From Candidatus Zixiibacteriota bacterium (GTDB lineage Bacteria > Zixibacteria > MSB-5A5 > UBA10806), in the NCBI GenBank assembly GCA_020348065.1, contig CP070742.1, positions 2,130,196 to 2,162,759 of the forward strand: 32,564 bases of DNA, in the 5' to 3' direction. The translations under genes were made by a program, and so were the position numbers. Position 1 is the stretch's first letter, and the number at the start of each line of letters is the position of its first letter. Of this stretch, positions 2,002-30,197 are shown piece after piece. The notes beneath the pieces are model-generated. The model was not told where the DNA came from and searched no databases. It was given only the letters and a program-made list of their open reading frames with translations.

Positions 2002-2036
2002 GTAGGTCGGGTTCCGAGCGGAGTGAGAAACCCGAC
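2002..2036 (+). repeat. REP family A, copy 1
   Basis: 35-bp imperfect palindrome beginning GTAGGTCGGGTTCCG and ending GAAACCCGAC, ten bp after pntB. It differs from the copy at 28329-28363 at only two positions. Confidence 0.85.
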
Positions 2037-6786: not shown

Positions 6787-6799
6787 GACGATAAACTGT

Positions 6800-6866
6800 G
6801 CAGTCGGGTCGCCTGACCCGACTGCGTTAGTTTTACATGAAAGCGTCAGGTGAGGCCACCTGACGC
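6800..6866. repeat. Double-hairpin repeat, copy 1
   Basis: Hairpin 1 (6800-6825) has arms GCAGTCGGGTC / GACCCGACTGC. After a 17-bp AT-rich spacer comes hairpin 2 (6843-6866) with arms GCGTCAGGTG / CACCTGACGC. The same two-module order and near-identical sequence recur at 9965-10032. Confidence 0.8.
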
Positions 6867-6946
6867 CACGGGTAGCTTGACGCCTTAAAGCCGTTAGATA
6901 CGGAGATCTGACGGCACGCGTAATCCTACGATAAGAAACCCCGGTA

Positions 6947-8013: not shown

Positions 8014-8060
8014 GTCGGGTTTCTCGTCCCGCCAAAGGCGGGATTCGAAACCCGACCTAC
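8014..8060 (-). repeat. REP family A, copy 2 (reverse)
   Basis: Reads GTCGGGTTTCTCG...GAAACCCGACCTAC, so the GTAGG end is on the minus strand. It includes an inner CCCGCCAAAGGCGGG hairpin and lies 10 bp after the radical SAM stop. Confidence 0.8.
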
Positions 8061-9932: not shown

Positions 9933-9964
9933 TATATCGGACTAACCATAATGCTGGTTAATGT

Positions 9965-10032
9965 GCGGTCGGGTCGCCTGACCCGACCGCTTTAATTTTA
10001 ACACAGAGGCGTCAGGTGAGGCCACCTGCCGC
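9965..10032. repeat. Double-hairpin repeat, copy 2
   Basis: Hairpin 1 (9965-9990) has arms GCGGTCGGGTC / GACCCGACCGC. After an 18-bp spacer comes hairpin 2 (10009-10032) with arms GCGTCAGGTG / CACCTGCCGC (one mismatch). It matches 6800-6866 including part of the AT-rich spacer. Confidence 0.8.
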
Positions 10033-10046
10033 CACCTATTGTGCTC

Positions 10047-20490: not shown

Positions 20491-21179
20491 TCTTTGCGCT
20501 TGGCGGCGGGATATTTTTCTATAGCATAACGTAGCGCAGTACGGGGCATTTCGCGTTTGTTTTTCATGACGTACTTGAATACCTCGTCAGGAAAGCGGTC
20601 TCCGGCCTCCTTGAGCATCCAGCCGTACCCCTTCTGCACCATGTCGTCATCGTCGGTAAGTAACAGATCGGCCGTCTTGAATACCTCCTTGAGCAAAAGG
20701 CCGTTTCTAACGGGCACTACAAGGCTCACCGCGGCCGCTCGACGAAACCAGCGGTTTTTGGATTTGGTCCATTTTTTGACCTTCGTAACCAGGTCGGGAT
20801 ACTGAACCAGAAGCTGCCCGGTTATGCCGCAGAAACTGTCGCACGATCCCCAGTGGTTTACGTAATCGTCTAGCCAGCGTTCGAACCGCGCGAAATCGGC
20901 TTTGCGGTACTGCCCTTTCAGCTTCCTGGCCCATTCGAAGGCGAAAAATCGCATGTAACGTTCCCCCGACTCCAGAAGCTCGTCGCAGATATCGAGTATC
21001 TCCATAGCCGGTTTACCCTTGACCTCCTTGAAGCAGTTGTTGGAGATCTTTCTGAGTATGGCGGTCTTGATCGATACCGGGTGTTCCAGCTTCTCCTTGA
21101 AGAACTTCTGGTAATTGAGCCGGTTTTCCGGTTTATCGTGTCTGGCGATCTCGCGGTTAAGTTTTTCAAGTAACTTCAT
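20472..21179 (-). CDS. alkD: DNA alkylation repeat protein (AlkD-like)
   Basis: 235 residues from ATG 21179, with GAGG 8 bp upstream; starts at 21185 or 21188 are less well placed. HEAT-like repeats cover the whole protein. Trp110 and Asp114 in VNHWGSCDSFCG line up with Trp109 and Asp113 of Bacillus AlkD, which flips and excises bulky N3- and N7-alkyl purines without a base-specific pocket. MVQKGYGWMLKEAG carries the other conserved Trp region. It is probably a base-excision glycosylase for alkylated DNA. The gene's 5' side shares a 25-bp segment with the isochorismatase gene on the far side of the RAYT unit. Confidence 0.88.
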   Translation of the reverse strand: MKLLEKLNREIARHDKPENRLNYQKFFKEKLEHPVSIKTAILRKISNNCFKEVKGKPAMEILDICDELLESGERYMRFFAFEWARKLKGQYRKADFARFERWLDDYVNHWGSCDSFCGITGQLLVQYPDLVTKVKKWTKSKNRWFRRAAAVSLVVPVRNGLLLKEVFKTADLLLTDDDDMVQKGYGWMLKEAGDRFPDEVFKYVMKNKREMPRTALRYAIEKYPAAKRKEAMRKD

Positions 21180-21186
21180 CGTCATC

Positions 21187-21211
21187 ACCTCGCTGCAATT
21201 TCGCTTCGCTC
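21187..21211 (+). repeat. 25-bp direct repeat flanking the RAYT unit, left copy
   Basis: ACCTCGCTGCAATTTCGCTT followed by CGCTC. It matches 21842-21866 with one mismatch and the same orientation. It lies just upstream of alkD on the other strand. Confidence 0.7.
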
Positions 21212-21230
21212 CTTCTCCAAAATCACTGTG

Positions 21231-21254
21231 CTGCCGGGTGACCCCACCCGGCAG
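21231..21254. repeat. REP family B, 3' boundary of RAYT unit 1
   Basis: Palindrome with arms CTGCCGGGTG / CACCCGGCAG, three bp after the transposase stop codon. The same element sits at the same place in unit 2 (31710-31733). Confidence 0.85.
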
Positions 21255-21257
21255 CTG

Positions 21258-21800
21258 TTAATAAAATTTATCAAAATCAAATAATATCCCTTTCGTGTCA
21301 TCTTGATTCTTCCAGTCTAAAAAACTAGAATATGGCCAATCGTCCGGATTTTCAACCAAATTATCTTTTACAGGATTATAATGTATATAATCTAATTTAA
21401 TCCTGAATTGCTTCTCGGATTTGATGACCAGATCGTCAAAACGTTCTTCCCAAAGGGGGCCTTTATGATTCAGATTAATCCTTACTCTGCCCTTGAGAGA
21501 ATGGATAAATCTCGACATGCCCGGCCCTCCATCCTTACAGCCAGCCAGAAGGTGAATATGGGATGGCATAATAACATAACCGAAAAGAGAAACACTTTTA
21601 TCTTGTACAGTATCGAATAATGTCCTTTCTATGATCCTTAAACATTCTGGATAATGCGGAAAATTTCTTCTATTGCTGGTGGTGGTAGTCAGGAAGAATA
21701 TGGTGGGATCTTTTATTAAATTTCTTTTTCTTAAAGGTAGTGTACATCTACCTTTCGGGTTAATGTTATTGCTGTCGGGTCGGGTGACCCGACAGCACAT
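21258..21800 (-). CDS. REP-associated tyrosine transposase (RAYT), copy 1
   Basis: 180 codons in the open frame; residues 22-180 align with the RAYT at 31695-32219 at about 75% identity. IS200/IS605-type Y1 fold: HIH pair His81/His83 in MPSHIHLLAG, catalytic Tyr138 in LDYIHYNPVK, a signature of the RAYT group. Such enzymes cut REP palindromes in single-stranded form and are usually single-copy domesticated relatives of transposases. The N-terminal 20 residues are read from the family B palindrome. The copy 2 start codon (TTG) corresponds here to CTA (21738-21740), so the true start is unclear and the copy may be weakly expressed or decaying. Confidence 0.88.
   Translation of the reverse strand: MCCRVTRPDSNNINPKGRCTLPLRKRNLIKDPTIFFLTTTTSNRRNFPHYPECLRIIERTLFDTVQDKSVSLFGYVIMPSHIHLLAGCKDGGPGMSRFIHSLKGRVRINLNHKGPLWEERFDDLVIKSEKQFRIKLDYIHYNPVKDNLVENPDDWPYSSFLDWKNQDDTKGILFDFDKFY
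21771..21796. repeat. REP family B, 5' boundary of RAYT unit 1
   Basis: Arms GCTGTCGGGTC / GACCCGACAGC with a short loop, 31 bp before the homologous start position of RAYT 1. Identical core at 32249-32274. Confidence 0.85.
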
Positions 21801-21839
21801 AAATCTCGCGTTTTAGTTTTTGGAGAGGTGTCATAGTTT

Positions 21840-22520
21840 TTACCTCACTGCAATTTCGCTTCGCTCTTTTCTCAGACTCCGTTCTATCTCCTCGCATTCG
21901 GTAACATAGGCGAACCCGAAGGCCAGATTGAGAAGGCTGGCGAGATGCATCTCCTCGTTGATGCTGCCGGTGCCGTCGGCAGGGAAAAATACCCGGTAGT
22001 CGCGGAAATAGGCATCCCGGGCGGTGGACTCGCAGCAGAGGTTGGTCATGATACCGCAAATCACCAGGTCCTCGATTTTCAAACAGCGCAGAACCGTCTC
22101 CAGATCTGTGTTGTAGAACGCCGAGTAACGATGCTTTAAGATCTGCTTTTCCCCGGGCAGCGGAGCGATGCTTTTATGCACCTCGCTTTCGGGGCTCCCC
22201 TCCAGGCAGATCCCCTCCCACCACCATTCCATGATGCCGATGTCATTGAGTTGTGGATTATGCACATGGCGCGTGTATATAACCGGCCGGCCGCCATCCC
22301 GGAACGCCGAAATCAGTTCTTTCAGCTTTGGGATTATCGCTAATCCGCCGCAGGTGAAGGTGGGAGATGATTCATCCAGGAAGAATTCCTGCATATCGAT
22401 AACCATTAGCGCGGACTTTTCCGCGTTCAGCTCCATCTTGTGCTGGTTGAACGTCTCGATCTTCTTCAGCCATTCTCTCGATTTGCTTTCTAACGTCTCA
22501 GGTGTTACATACGATTGCAT
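21840..22520 (-). CDS. Isochorismatase-family cysteine hydrolase
   Basis: 226 residues. Catalytic triad of the family: Asp42 in MVIDMQEFF, Lys129 in ILKHRYSAF, Cys162 in GIMTNLCCESTARDA. The cis-peptide region and the AADGTGSINEE-like segment are also present. Members include nicotinamidases, isochorismatases and ureidoacrylate hydrolases; HNPQ/WWWEG in the substrate lid does not point clearly to one. AAGGAG precedes ATG 22520. The last codons (RSEIAVR) lie in the 25-bp segment that is repeated upstream of alkD. Confidence 0.9.
   Translation of the reverse strand: MQSYVTPETLESKSREWLKKIETFNQHKMELNAEKSALMVIDMQEFFLDESSPTFTCGGLAIIPKLKELISAFRDGGRPVIYTRHVHNPQLNDIGIMEWWWEGICLEGSPESEVHKSIAPLPGEKQILKHRYSAFYNTDLETVLRCLKIEDLVICGIMTNLCCESTARDAYFRDYRVFFPADGTGSINEEMHLASLLNLAFGFAYVTECEEIERSLRKERSEIAVR
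21842..21866 (+). repeat. 25-bp direct repeat flanking the RAYT unit, right copy
   Basis: ACCTCACTGCAATTTCGCTT followed by CGCTC. It overlaps the last codons of the isochorismatase-family gene. Confidence 0.7.
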
Positions 22521-22579: not shown

Positions 22580-22626
22580 GTAGGTCGGGTTCCGATCCCG
22601 ACTTTTGGTCGGGAGAGAAACCCGAC
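22580..22626 (+). repeat. REP family A, copy 3 (RAYT 3, 3' side)
   Basis: Starts GTAGGTCGGGTTCCG and ends GAAACCCGAC, with an inner TCCCGACTTTTGGTCGGGA hairpin. It lies 5 bp beyond the stop of the divergent RAYT. Confidence 0.85.
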
Positions 22627-22631
22627 ATCAA

Positions 22632-23111
22632 TCACTCTCCATAATCCCCATCGAATTCGAGTATGTTCTTAATACCCCAATCCCTATTATAGTAACCCTC
22701 TTTATAATAGTCTGTCAATGATGAATGATTATATTCGAAAGGATCCTGCACAATTCCATGTTTTACCGGATTATAATGAATATAATCCAGATGCCGGTTT
22801 AAATCATCCTGATTTCTAATGATATGATCCCAATACCTGTTTTGCCATACTCGGCCTTTTCGATATTTATCACGACAATGCCGAGAATAGGTTATTTTGA
22901 ATTTATGCATTATCTCCGATATAGATATTTTGTCTATTTTTATAATAGAGTGAAAATGATCTGCCAGAATAACCCATGCTTTGGGTAACGGACCGAACCA
23001 AGAATTCCAAAACAATTTCAAATCGTTCAATAAAATATTTTCTCTTTTGTATGTTACAACGGTAATGAAATAATATCTATTGCGTAAATCGAAGCGTCTA
23101 AATGTTTTCAT
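22632..23111 (-). CDS. REP-associated tyrosine transposase (RAYT), divergent type
   Basis: 159 residues. His52-Phe-His54 in ILADHFHSIIK is the HUH-like metal pair. Tyr110 in LDYIHYNPVKHGIV is the expected catalytic tyrosine. CRDKYRKGRVWQNRYWDHII is also typical of RAYTs. It shares only these motifs with the other two copies, so it belongs to another group. It is bounded by inverted family A palindromes at 22580-22626 and 23152-23206, whose GTAGG ends face outward. The frame is intact. It is probably a domesticated single-strand transposase acting on family A repeats. Confidence 0.9.
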   Translation of the reverse strand: MKTFRRFDLRNRYYFITVVTYKRENILLNDLKLFWNSWFGPLPKAWVILADHFHSIIKIDKISISEIMHKFKITYSRHCRDKYRKGRVWQNRYWDHIIRNQDDLNRHLDYIHYNPVKHGIVQDPFEYNHSSLTDYYKEGYYNRDWGIKNILEFDGDYGE

Positions 23112-23151
23112 CTTCTGTTCTTGGGAATTGTCTTCCTGCTTTGGCTTAGGC

Positions 23152-23206
23152 GTCGGGTTTCTCGCTCATCCCGCTTTCAGCGGGAATCGCTCGGAACCCG
23201 ACCTAC
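23152..23206 (-). repeat. REP family A, copy 4 (RAYT 3, 5' side)
   Basis: Reads GTCGGGTTTCTCGC...GGAACCCGACCTAC with an inner TCCCGCTTTCAGCGGGA hairpin. Inverted with respect to copy 3; 40 bp upstream of the RAYT start. Confidence 0.85.
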
Positions 23207-26859: not shown

Positions 26860-27122
26860 CAGTAGGTCGGGTTTGACCCCGCTTTAGCGGGGCCCAAACC
26901 CGACGCAAATAATGTCGTAGGGATACACCCATGTGTGTATCCCTTTTTCGCCCACGGTGGCCACATGATTCCGCCGCTACGACCGTATTTGTATGCCGGA
27001 CTCGATCCGGCATCTATAATGGCCCGCCTCTATAGATTCCTGCTTTCGCAGGAATTACATTGAAAATTTGGTTTTGCAGTCATAGCAAGTTTCCGGATCC
27101 CGCGTAGCGGGGCTATGACTCG
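26860..27122 (+). repeat. 263-bp direct repeat, copy 1
   Basis: Starts with a family A-type palindrome (26862-26904), then CGCAAATAATGTCGTAGGGA, a GGATACACCCATGTGTGTATCC hairpin (written here as GATACACC / TGTGTATC), the ATGCCGGA/TCCGGCAT module and a CCCGCGTAGCGGGG end. It matches 28733-28995 with about four differences by eye. Confidence 0.9.
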
Positions 27123-27319
27123 CGGGATAAAATCGTTCCTTCAGATCGTAGCCCTGCCAGTGGCGGGGCGTGATCTGACGGTAATAGAGCTAAGCGGCAG
27201 GTCACGTCCCGATTGAAAAGCCGGGACTACGACCCGCCGCAATAATAAAATTATAAGACAAATAATAATCTGACCTTTATATAAAATCATATTTTTTCTT
27301 GTATAACCAAATCATATTT

Positions 27320-27358: not shown

Positions 27359-28321
27359 ATGAAAACAGAATATTTTCGGCCGTTATGTTATCCAGCAGTA
27401 TTTTTGTTAAGCGCTATATTATTGAACTGCGACAAAGATAAATCCATTGATCCGAACCTTCCCTCGGGTGTTCACTTAATGGCATCCCTCAATATTCAAT
27501 ACACAAATTCAGTTTCTGTGTACGGCGACTACGCATATGTAGTGGGAGAGCCCGGGTTGCTCGTGATCGATATCTCCGATCCCAGCAATCCCGACATCGT
27601 GGGGAGTTGTGATACGGTGGGAACGGATGGGACTATTTTCGTGGATGGCAGCTATGCGTACATGAGTGCCGGCGCTATTGTCAATATCGAAAACCCGGCC
27701 GAACCATTTTTGATCGGGAGATTCCCCGACCTTTTGGTCCCGACCGGCCTCTTTATCGACGGCGATTACGCCTATTTTTCGTCAAGTACCATGGCCTTAA
27801 CGATATTTGATATAGCCGATCGGGCCGATCCTGTTTTAGTCAAAGAGTATAACCCCACCGGAAGCACCTCCGGAATCTGGATAGAAGGTAACTACGCCTT
27901 CCTGGCGTACGGGGATCATATTCGAATCATCGGCATAATAGATGTGCTCCGCCCGGTTCATATTAAAAGCGCCTTTGTGCCCGGCCCGGCGGTCGAAGTG
28001 TGCGTACGTAATGATATCGCCTATGTCACGGGTGATACTTCCGGGCTGTTTTTGATCGATATCGATCCCTTAAATAACGCCACTTGGGTCGGAACTTACG
28101 ATACGCCCGGAGCAGCCTTCTGGGTCTGCTCGGACGGGAATTACGCCTATGTTGCCGACAGGGAGTCGGGGCTACAGATAATCGACTGCCACGATCCCGC
28201 CAACCCTGTTTTCGCGGCAAGTTATGAAACCTCGGGGCCGGCGAATTGCGTTTTTGTCTACAGAGGGTATATCTATCTGACTGACATGGAAAAACTCTAT
28301 ATTCTGAAGTTCGTGCCGTGA
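27359..28321 (+). CDS. LVIVD-repeat beta-propeller lipoprotein
   Basis: 320 residues. Signal peptide with lipobox LLNC (Cys about 24). At least six repeats of about 42 residues follow, with the pattern V-x-G-D/N-Y-A-Y-V...G-L-x-I-I/V-D-I-S-D-P-x-x-P: YGDYAYVVGEPGLLVIDISD, DGNYAYVADRESGLQIIDCH and others. This LVIVD fold is a beta-propeller found at the surface of many FCB bacteria. The role is binding or scaffolding, not a known enzyme. GGGAGG precedes the start. The gene lies exactly between the two 263-bp direct repeats. Confidence 0.9.
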   Translation: MKTEYFRPLCYPAVFLLSAILLNCDKDKSIDPNLPSGVHLMASLNIQYTNSVSVYGDYAYVVGEPGLLVIDISDPSNPDIVGSCDTVGTDGTIFVDGSYAYMSAGAIVNIENPAEPFLIGRFPDLLVPTGLFIDGDYAYFSSSTMALTIFDIADRADPVLVKEYNPTGSTSGIWIEGNYAFLAYGDHIRIIGIIDVLRPVHIKSAFVPGPAVEVCVRNDIAYVTGDTSGLFLIDIDPLNNATWVGTYDTPGAAFWVCSDGNYAYVADRESGLQIIDCHDPANPVFAASYETSGPANCVFVYRGYIYLTDMEKLYILKFVP

Positions 28322-28328
28322 TTCAGCT

Positions 28329-28363
28329 GTAGGTCGGGTTCCGAACGAAGTGAGAAACCCGAC
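28329..28363 (+). repeat. REP family A, copy 5
   Basis: 35 bp, starting 8 bp after the LVIVD stop. Same inner sequence as the copy at 2002-2036 apart from two substitutions. Confidence 0.85.
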
Positions 28364-28732: not shown

Positions 28733-28995
28733 CAGTAGGTCGGGTTTGACCCCGCTTTAGCGGGGCCCAAACCCGACGCAAATAATGTCGTAGGAATACA
28801 CCCATGTGTGTATCCCTTTTTCGCCCACGGTGGCCACATGGTTCCGCCGCTACGACCGTATTTGTATGCCGGACTCGATCCGGCATCTATAATGGCCCGC
28901 CTCTATAGATTCCTGCTTTCGCAGGAATGACATTGAAAATTTGGTTTTGCAGTCATAGCAAATTTCCGGATCCCGCGTAGCGGGGCTATGACTCG
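28733..28995 (+). repeat. 263-bp direct repeat, copy 2
   Basis: Same order and length as 26860-27122. Visible differences are single-base: GGAATAC for GGGATAC, GGTTCC for GATTCC, AATGACATT for AATTACATT and CAAATTT for CAAGTTT. The family A core is at 28735-28777. Confidence 0.9.
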
Positions 28996-29043
28996 TAGAA
29001 TAAAGATCGGGGTTAGATAGAATCGAGAAACCTGACGCTCATC

Positions 29044-30155: not shown

Positions 30156-30197
30156 GTCGGGTTTCTCGATCCTTCGGATCTTCGGAACCCGACCTAC
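30156..30197 (-). repeat. REP family A, copy 6 (reverse)
   Basis: Reads GTCGGGTTTCTCGATCC...GGAACCCGACCTAC with an inner GATCCTTCGGATC hairpin. It lies 24 bp upstream of the nuclease-like gene. Confidence 0.85.

Follow-up and report, generated by a model that had tools for sequence, protein, structure and literature searches.

Among described systems, a close counterpart of the locus examined here is the REPtron of Escherichia coli (group 2/subclass 2.2). Its TnpA-REP is an HuH/Tyr RAYT with DHxH, W-Q and Y---NP motifs; imperfect palindromes that are tagged with GTAG and interrupted by an internal loop flank it in inverted orientation, and its repeats are dispersed and extragenic (4er8; PMC6006769, PMC8266576). 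The GTAG is contacted in the E. coli protein by Q95, D/E100, H101, R104 and the C-terminal G160-E161 (PMC8266576, PMC6006769), and the bulged palindrome layout has been assigned to subclass 2.2 (PMC6006769). In SELEX, the upper half of this E. coli repeat proved to be non-specific, with a structural role only. Several RAYT/REP pairs in one genome are also a published phenomenon: Pseudomonas fluorescens SBW25 and Stenotrophomonas carry several RAYTs, each with its own palindrome class, repeat abundance tracks the cognate RAYT, and orphan repeats remain after RAYT loss (PMC2817692, PMC3116915, PMC3686654). The transposases of IS200/IS605 elements (IS608 and ISDra2; subclass 1.1) share the HuH/single-Tyr fold and a hairpin substrate; their signature is Y---Q, TnpB is often their partner, and they occur as multiple copies that are nearly identical.

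Here we describe a locus in Candidatus Zixiibacteriota, within a 32,564-nt stretch (positions 2130196–2162759) of a 3.74-Mb single-contig genome; we refer to this stretch as the window. The segment 22580–23206 is very probably a REPtron, in which a single-copy RAYT lies between two inverted cognate REPs that it would mobilise in trans (Table 1). In style it belongs to group 2, and a dispersed REP family is its cognate, so that it represents a known kind of system; because multiple RAYT/REP pairs per genome have already been published, their coexistence here is not new. Our literature search for a published RAYT/REP study in Zixibacteria returned only unrelated matches.

Table 1 Positions of the two REPtrons and of the family A repeats in the window
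Feature	Position	Strand	Basis or context
RAYT / TnpA-REP gene	22632..23111	(-)	159 aa ORF
Family A REP, 3' side of RAYT gene, GTAGGTCGGGTTCCGATCCCGACTTTTGGTCGGGAGAGAAACCCGAC	22580..22626	(+)	Sequence and fold
Family A REP, 5' side of RAYT gene, inverted	23152..23206	(-)	55 nt, longer inner hairpin
Dispersed family A REP, 35-nt type	2002..2036	(+)	10 bp past ORF end (1992)
Dispersed family A REP, 47-nt bulged type	8014..8060	(-)	10 bp past ORF end (8004)
Family A head and arms, different interior	26862..26904	(+)	Inside 272-bp repeat copy 1
Dispersed family A REP, 35-nt type	28329..28363	(+)	8 bp past ORF end (28321)
Family A head and arms	28735..28777	(+)	Inside 272-bp repeat copy 2
Dispersed family A REP, 42-nt type	30156..30197	(-)	15 bp from ORF end (30141)
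Family-B REPtron with its bracketing direct repeats	21148-21869		RAYT 21258-21800

By its profile matches and predicted fold, the product of ORF 22632–23111 is a RAYT/TnpA-REP in the style of group 2/subclass 2.2. It scored 108.5 bits against NF047646 (NCBIfam REP_Tyr_transpos; cut-off 80) and 28.5 bits against PF01797 (Pfam; cut-off 23); because PF01797 alone misses one RAYT of the window, NF047646 was used in its place. Its sole PDB relative by sequence was 4er8 (E = 3.9e-13), the structure of E. coli TnpA-REP in complex with a REP hairpin. The same entry was the best fold match (TM 0.79) of an AlphaFold2 model (pLDDT 87.4, pTM 0.82, with a low-confidence C-terminal tail), followed by the IS608 and ISDra2 transposases. 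The HuH motif is D51-H52-F-H54 (DHFH at 51–54) and the catalytic tyrosine is Y110, in YIHYNP, which satisfies the class 2 signature Y---NP; the HuH histidine and the tyrosine are invariant in the alignment columns of relatives. In the guide region, W89-Q90....D95-H96..R99 aligns with WQ....EH..R of 4er8, and the protein ends in G158-E159, a tail that matches that of E. coli by position and motif, beyond the end of the phmmer alignment. The GTAG-contacting residues of the E. coli protein are therefore conserved (Q90, D95, H96, R99 and G158-E159), including the C-terminal Gly-Glu, which is the exact C-terminus here and lies at 160–161 of 165 residues in E. coli. The two proteins are about 26% identical in a structural alignment and their hosts belong to different phyla, that of RAYT 22632–23111 being Zixibacteria. 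In the nearest named relative of the genome, the Candidatus Zixiibacteriota MAG CP070813, this RAYT is 87% identical. An IS200/IS605 insertion sequence of subclass 1.1 was considered and rejected: YIHYNP lacks Y---Q, and the gene is single copy, with the next best in the same genome 47% identical.

The sequence-only reading of this DNA had placed the RAYT between inverted family A repeats with their GTAGG ends outward, and we found them exactly there, with GTAG pointing outward. Both flanking palindromes are of the type GTAGGTCGGGTT...AACCCGAC. Folded as single-stranded DNA, the copy at 22580–22626 has a GTAG foot, an 8-bp outer stem, a 4/4 internal loop and a 7-bp inner hairpin (-15.8 kcal/mol, z -5.2); the copy at 23152–23206 folds with z -4.5, and the GTAG is unpaired in both. 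This bulged fold agrees with the subclass 2.2 layout (PMC6006769). From the E. coli biochemistry (PMC8266576), we infer single-strand binding, cleavage and mobilisation by RAYT 22632–23111 as follows. The protein would most likely bind the REP as a folded single strand of DNA. Residues Q90-D95-H96-R99, together with the C-terminal Gly-Glu, would read the unpaired GTAG foot, and the DNA-binding helix would read the outer stem and internal loop. Cleavage and rejoining of the strand by the HuH/Tyr110 centre, beside the hairpin, would follow and would spread REPs in trans, along with REPINs, that is, outward pairs of REPs.

The six further copies listed in that reading are all present. Four of them sit 8–15 bp from an ORF end; the other two, which the reading had set apart, lie within 272-bp repeats. 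These repeats (26860–27131 and 28733–29004; 97% identical) stand on either side of the gene at 27359–28321, and each opens with a family A head and contains further palindromes, as a mosaic or BIME-like unit. With chance expectation calculated for the 12-base head from base composition and the reversed pattern as control, the head GTAGGTCGGGTT occurred 68 times in the 3.74-Mb genome versus 0.4 expected (reversed pattern, 0) and 8 times in the window versus 0.0035 expected. Both arms were present at 47 of the 68 heads, and 24 of 30 sampled copies fell outside ORFs of at least 120 aa. Within 25 kb of the RAYT we counted 6 copies versus 0.88 expected, in a region that was chosen for its repeats; this local clustering, in which two copies share one duplicated segment, is at most suggestive. 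Four outward pairs at no more than 150 bp, and no inward pairs, were found among the 68 heads.

The interiors of the 47 two-arm copies fall into several types (27, 33, 35 and 42–55 nt) and pair more than shuffled interiors do, and many short dispersed copies consist of the outer stem and loop only. Relatives show a fixed family A shell with widely different inner hairpins. In a departure from the E. coli REP, family A copies have inner hairpins of differing sequence and length. The combination of a hypervariable inner hairpin with a fixed foot and outer stem, whose constancy in our counts was imposed by the search pattern itself, fits the SELEX result for E. coli.

The sequence-only reading had proposed two parallel enzyme/repeat pairs. 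The protein comparison on which it drew holds, because RAYT 22632–23111 and the family-B RAYT share only 32% identity over 93 aa, but the number does not: the genome has ten intact, diverged RAYTs above the NCBIfam cut-off (loci L017–L029), most with their own palindrome type, as well as a split RAYT at 2861587–2861978 and a fragment at 1763587. Other genomes of the phylum have up to 12. The palindromes beside these RAYTs include GTAGCCGGGGTC, GGTGCCCCACC, GTTGGCAGAC, TGGTTACCAAGC, TGTGCTGYCGGGT and GTGTCAGGATG, and 3 of the 10 RAYTs have a GTAG foot by eye. In carrying ten intact RAYTs, and GTAG and non-GTAG types together, this genome differs from SBW25 and Stenotrophomonas.

Of the two families, only A forms a dispersed REP population. 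An excess outside the window, which the reading expected of its repeats, was found for family A, with its 68 heads genome-wide, and failed for family B, which has 9 strict copies in the genome, 6 of them in the window and 4 flanking its two RAYTs (75% identical to each other). Family B is thus low-copy here, rather than present in hundreds as in SBW25 and Stenotrophomonas. Heads of other palindrome families, counted in a 400-kb sample, were too few for the families to be ranked. The family-B REPtron is absent from the syntenic site in the same-genus genome G001 and is bracketed by 67-bp direct repeats (21148–21214 and 21803–21869; 78% alike). These may represent a target duplication, or they may have belonged to the incoming piece. 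Such target duplications are not expected from IS200-like elements. Elsewhere in the window, a double palindrome occurs twice (6797–6869 and 9962–10035), with a family-B-like hairpin preceding GCGTCAGGTGAGGCCACCTGACGCC or a variant close to it.

We compared the occurrence of family A and of its RAYT across 97 related genomes. Because the raw 12-base head overcounts, marking a different palindrome (GTAGGTCGGGTTGCGAAAGCTACCCGAC) in some genomes, we used the strict, two-arm pattern. A close RAYT relative was defined by at least 175 bits against RAYT 22632–23111, a line chosen after the scores were known. The sequence-only reading asked whether presence of the repeat follows the RAYT, and it does: the full repeat was found in 19 of 19 genomes with a close RAYT and in 28 of 78 without (p = 5e-5, permutation within host families). 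The converse expectation, that the repeat should not be abundant where this RAYT group is missing, was borne out only in part, because eight genomes without a close RAYT have at least 9 strict copies (G028, 85; G053, 44; G084, 20; G005, 16; G037, 14; G083, 11; G015, 9; G077, 9). No close RAYT relative was detected in these eight, even at loose thresholds; G015 is rated 100% complete in 40 contigs, and several of them carry RAYTs of a neighbouring clade with simpler GTAG palindromes. Orphan repeats in pseudomonads and stenotrophomonads have been attributed to RAYT loss or to mutated RAYT-flanking REPs (PMC3686654). RAYT loss can likewise explain orphan family A copies, to which incomplete assemblies may add. 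Among the 48 family A heads of G053 we counted 13 outward pairs at distances of up to 150 bp, and inward pairs were absent; this arrangement is REPIN-like.

Persistence of the repeats without the RAYT in those eight genomes would also be expected if the pair were real but now inactive, with the repeats as relics of past mobility and the RAYT kept for some host role in processing single-stranded DNA. Consistent with this idea, TnpA-REP has been described as a domesticated transposase (PMC8266576), and RAYT 22632–23111 is single copy and syntenic between two species: in G001, the REPtron with both REPs is found at the corresponding position, over about 630 bp and with 85% identity. Dispersed copies, by contrast, differ at syntenic sites of these two same-genus genomes. 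In G001, the family A copy at 8014 and the family A head of 26862 are missing from the syntenic sites, and at the site of 28329 a different GTAG palindrome stands in place of the family A copy. Some dispersed copies have therefore changed while the REPtron stayed unmoved, with gain and loss indistinguishable from two genomes. Given this turnover and the outward REPIN-like pairs, we regard inactivity as a serious contender, if an unlikely one, and favour a REPtron whose RAYT mobilises its cognate repeats.

Tracking across genomes might arise in another way, if repeat and RAYT were co-distributed solely through shared inheritance within host lineages, without enzyme/repeat specificity. Related rows are indeed non-independent, and a paired test of guide residues against feet (below) had too few independent pairs; on the other hand, the association survives permutation within host families, and the RAYT tree separates palindrome type from host. 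The RAYTs for that tree came, together with their flanks, from this genome and its relatives: 149 distinct ones were gathered, 146 had usable flanks and 139 were placed on the tree. In 111 of the 146, an inverted flank repeat pair exceeded the 95th percentile of mismatched flanks. Paired GTAG feet beside RAYTs pointed outward in 40 cases and inward in 5, and the inverted, GTAG-outward layout recurs in relatives at 48–87% protein identity to RAYT 22632–23111. Palindrome type changed 13 times on the tree, compared with at least 54 times when shuffled (500 shuffles). All 19 RAYTs flanked by family A fell into one clade of 23, and no flank pair was found for the remaining four. Within this clade, host family changed 13 times against a shuffled mean of 15.4, that is, host families are mixed, so lineage alone is insufficient to explain the pairing and we consider descent by itself a very unlikely account. 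A 'Calditrichaeota' relative (L092) was examined as a cross-phylum transfer and set aside: its flanking repeats are the same as those of the Zixibacteria genome G096, and the two probably represent a single organism that goes by different names.

Cognate pairing of RAYT and palindrome is therefore well supported. The co-evolved specificity that the sequence-only reading had drawn from its two families is upheld to this extent, by the genome-wide excess, the tracking by RAYT clade and the RAYT tree, and falls short for family B, which has not expanded outside the window. That family A copies simply serve as intrinsic terminators or as hairpins that stabilise mRNA, and flank the RAYT by coincidence, is extremely improbable: their hairpins fold stably and most copies are intergenic and near gene ends (four of six in the window within 15 bp; the sampled copies mostly outside ORFs), but the unpaired GTAG head is kept in 68 copies, inverted outward flanks stand beside RAYTs in many genomes, repeat presence tracks the RAYT, and the close pairs in G053 are outward only.

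The same set of RAYTs links the foot tetranucleotide to the residues that would read it. A strict outward GTAG pair stood beside 40 RAYTs among the 87 that have Q-[DE]-H-R, and beside none of the 48 whose residues differ from it; a looser GTAG count gave 42 of 72 versus 3 of 31 (p = 3e-6). Among RAYTs with detectable flank pairs, GTAG was present in at least one flanking copy for all 49 that end in Gly-Glu and for 25 of 58 tail-less ones. Feet of GTGC, GTAC or GTCG belong to a tail-less clade in which Q-D-H-R is mostly kept: L018, L173, L186–L188, L191, L193, L206, L208 and L223, nearly all in one clade, have Q-D-H-R (one has L-D-H-R) and no Gly-Glu tail, and their repeats start with GTGC, GTAC or GTCG followed by a CCCAC stem. 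GTAG is also found beside other tail-less RAYTs, such as the GTAGGGTGGGC group; the Gly-Glu tail thus accompanies GTAG and is not required for it. The tail changed 5 times on the RAYT tree, and phylogenetically independent pairs of guide residues and feet numbered 3–5 supported pairs, too few for power, so the guide residue/foot link holds at the level of clades. Because independent changes are few and the links were found by looking, we treat them as hypotheses. They are compatible with a split foot code in Zixibacteria, in which Q-[DE]-H-R would fix GT and the C-terminal Gly-Glu would fix AG, a scheme that we offer tentatively, as possible and somewhat short of probable.

These data extend the RAYT/REP partnership to the phylum Zixibacteria, for which we found no earlier description. 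Ten diverged RAYTs with several palindrome types in one genome form a natural panel for studying how HuH transposases choose their hairpins. If the split code is true, the repeat foot would be predictable from the RAYT sequence, and a tail swap would alter the foot that is accepted. The covariation of guide residues, tail and foot yields specific predictions that could be put cheaply to in vitro cleavage assays such as those already used for E. coli.
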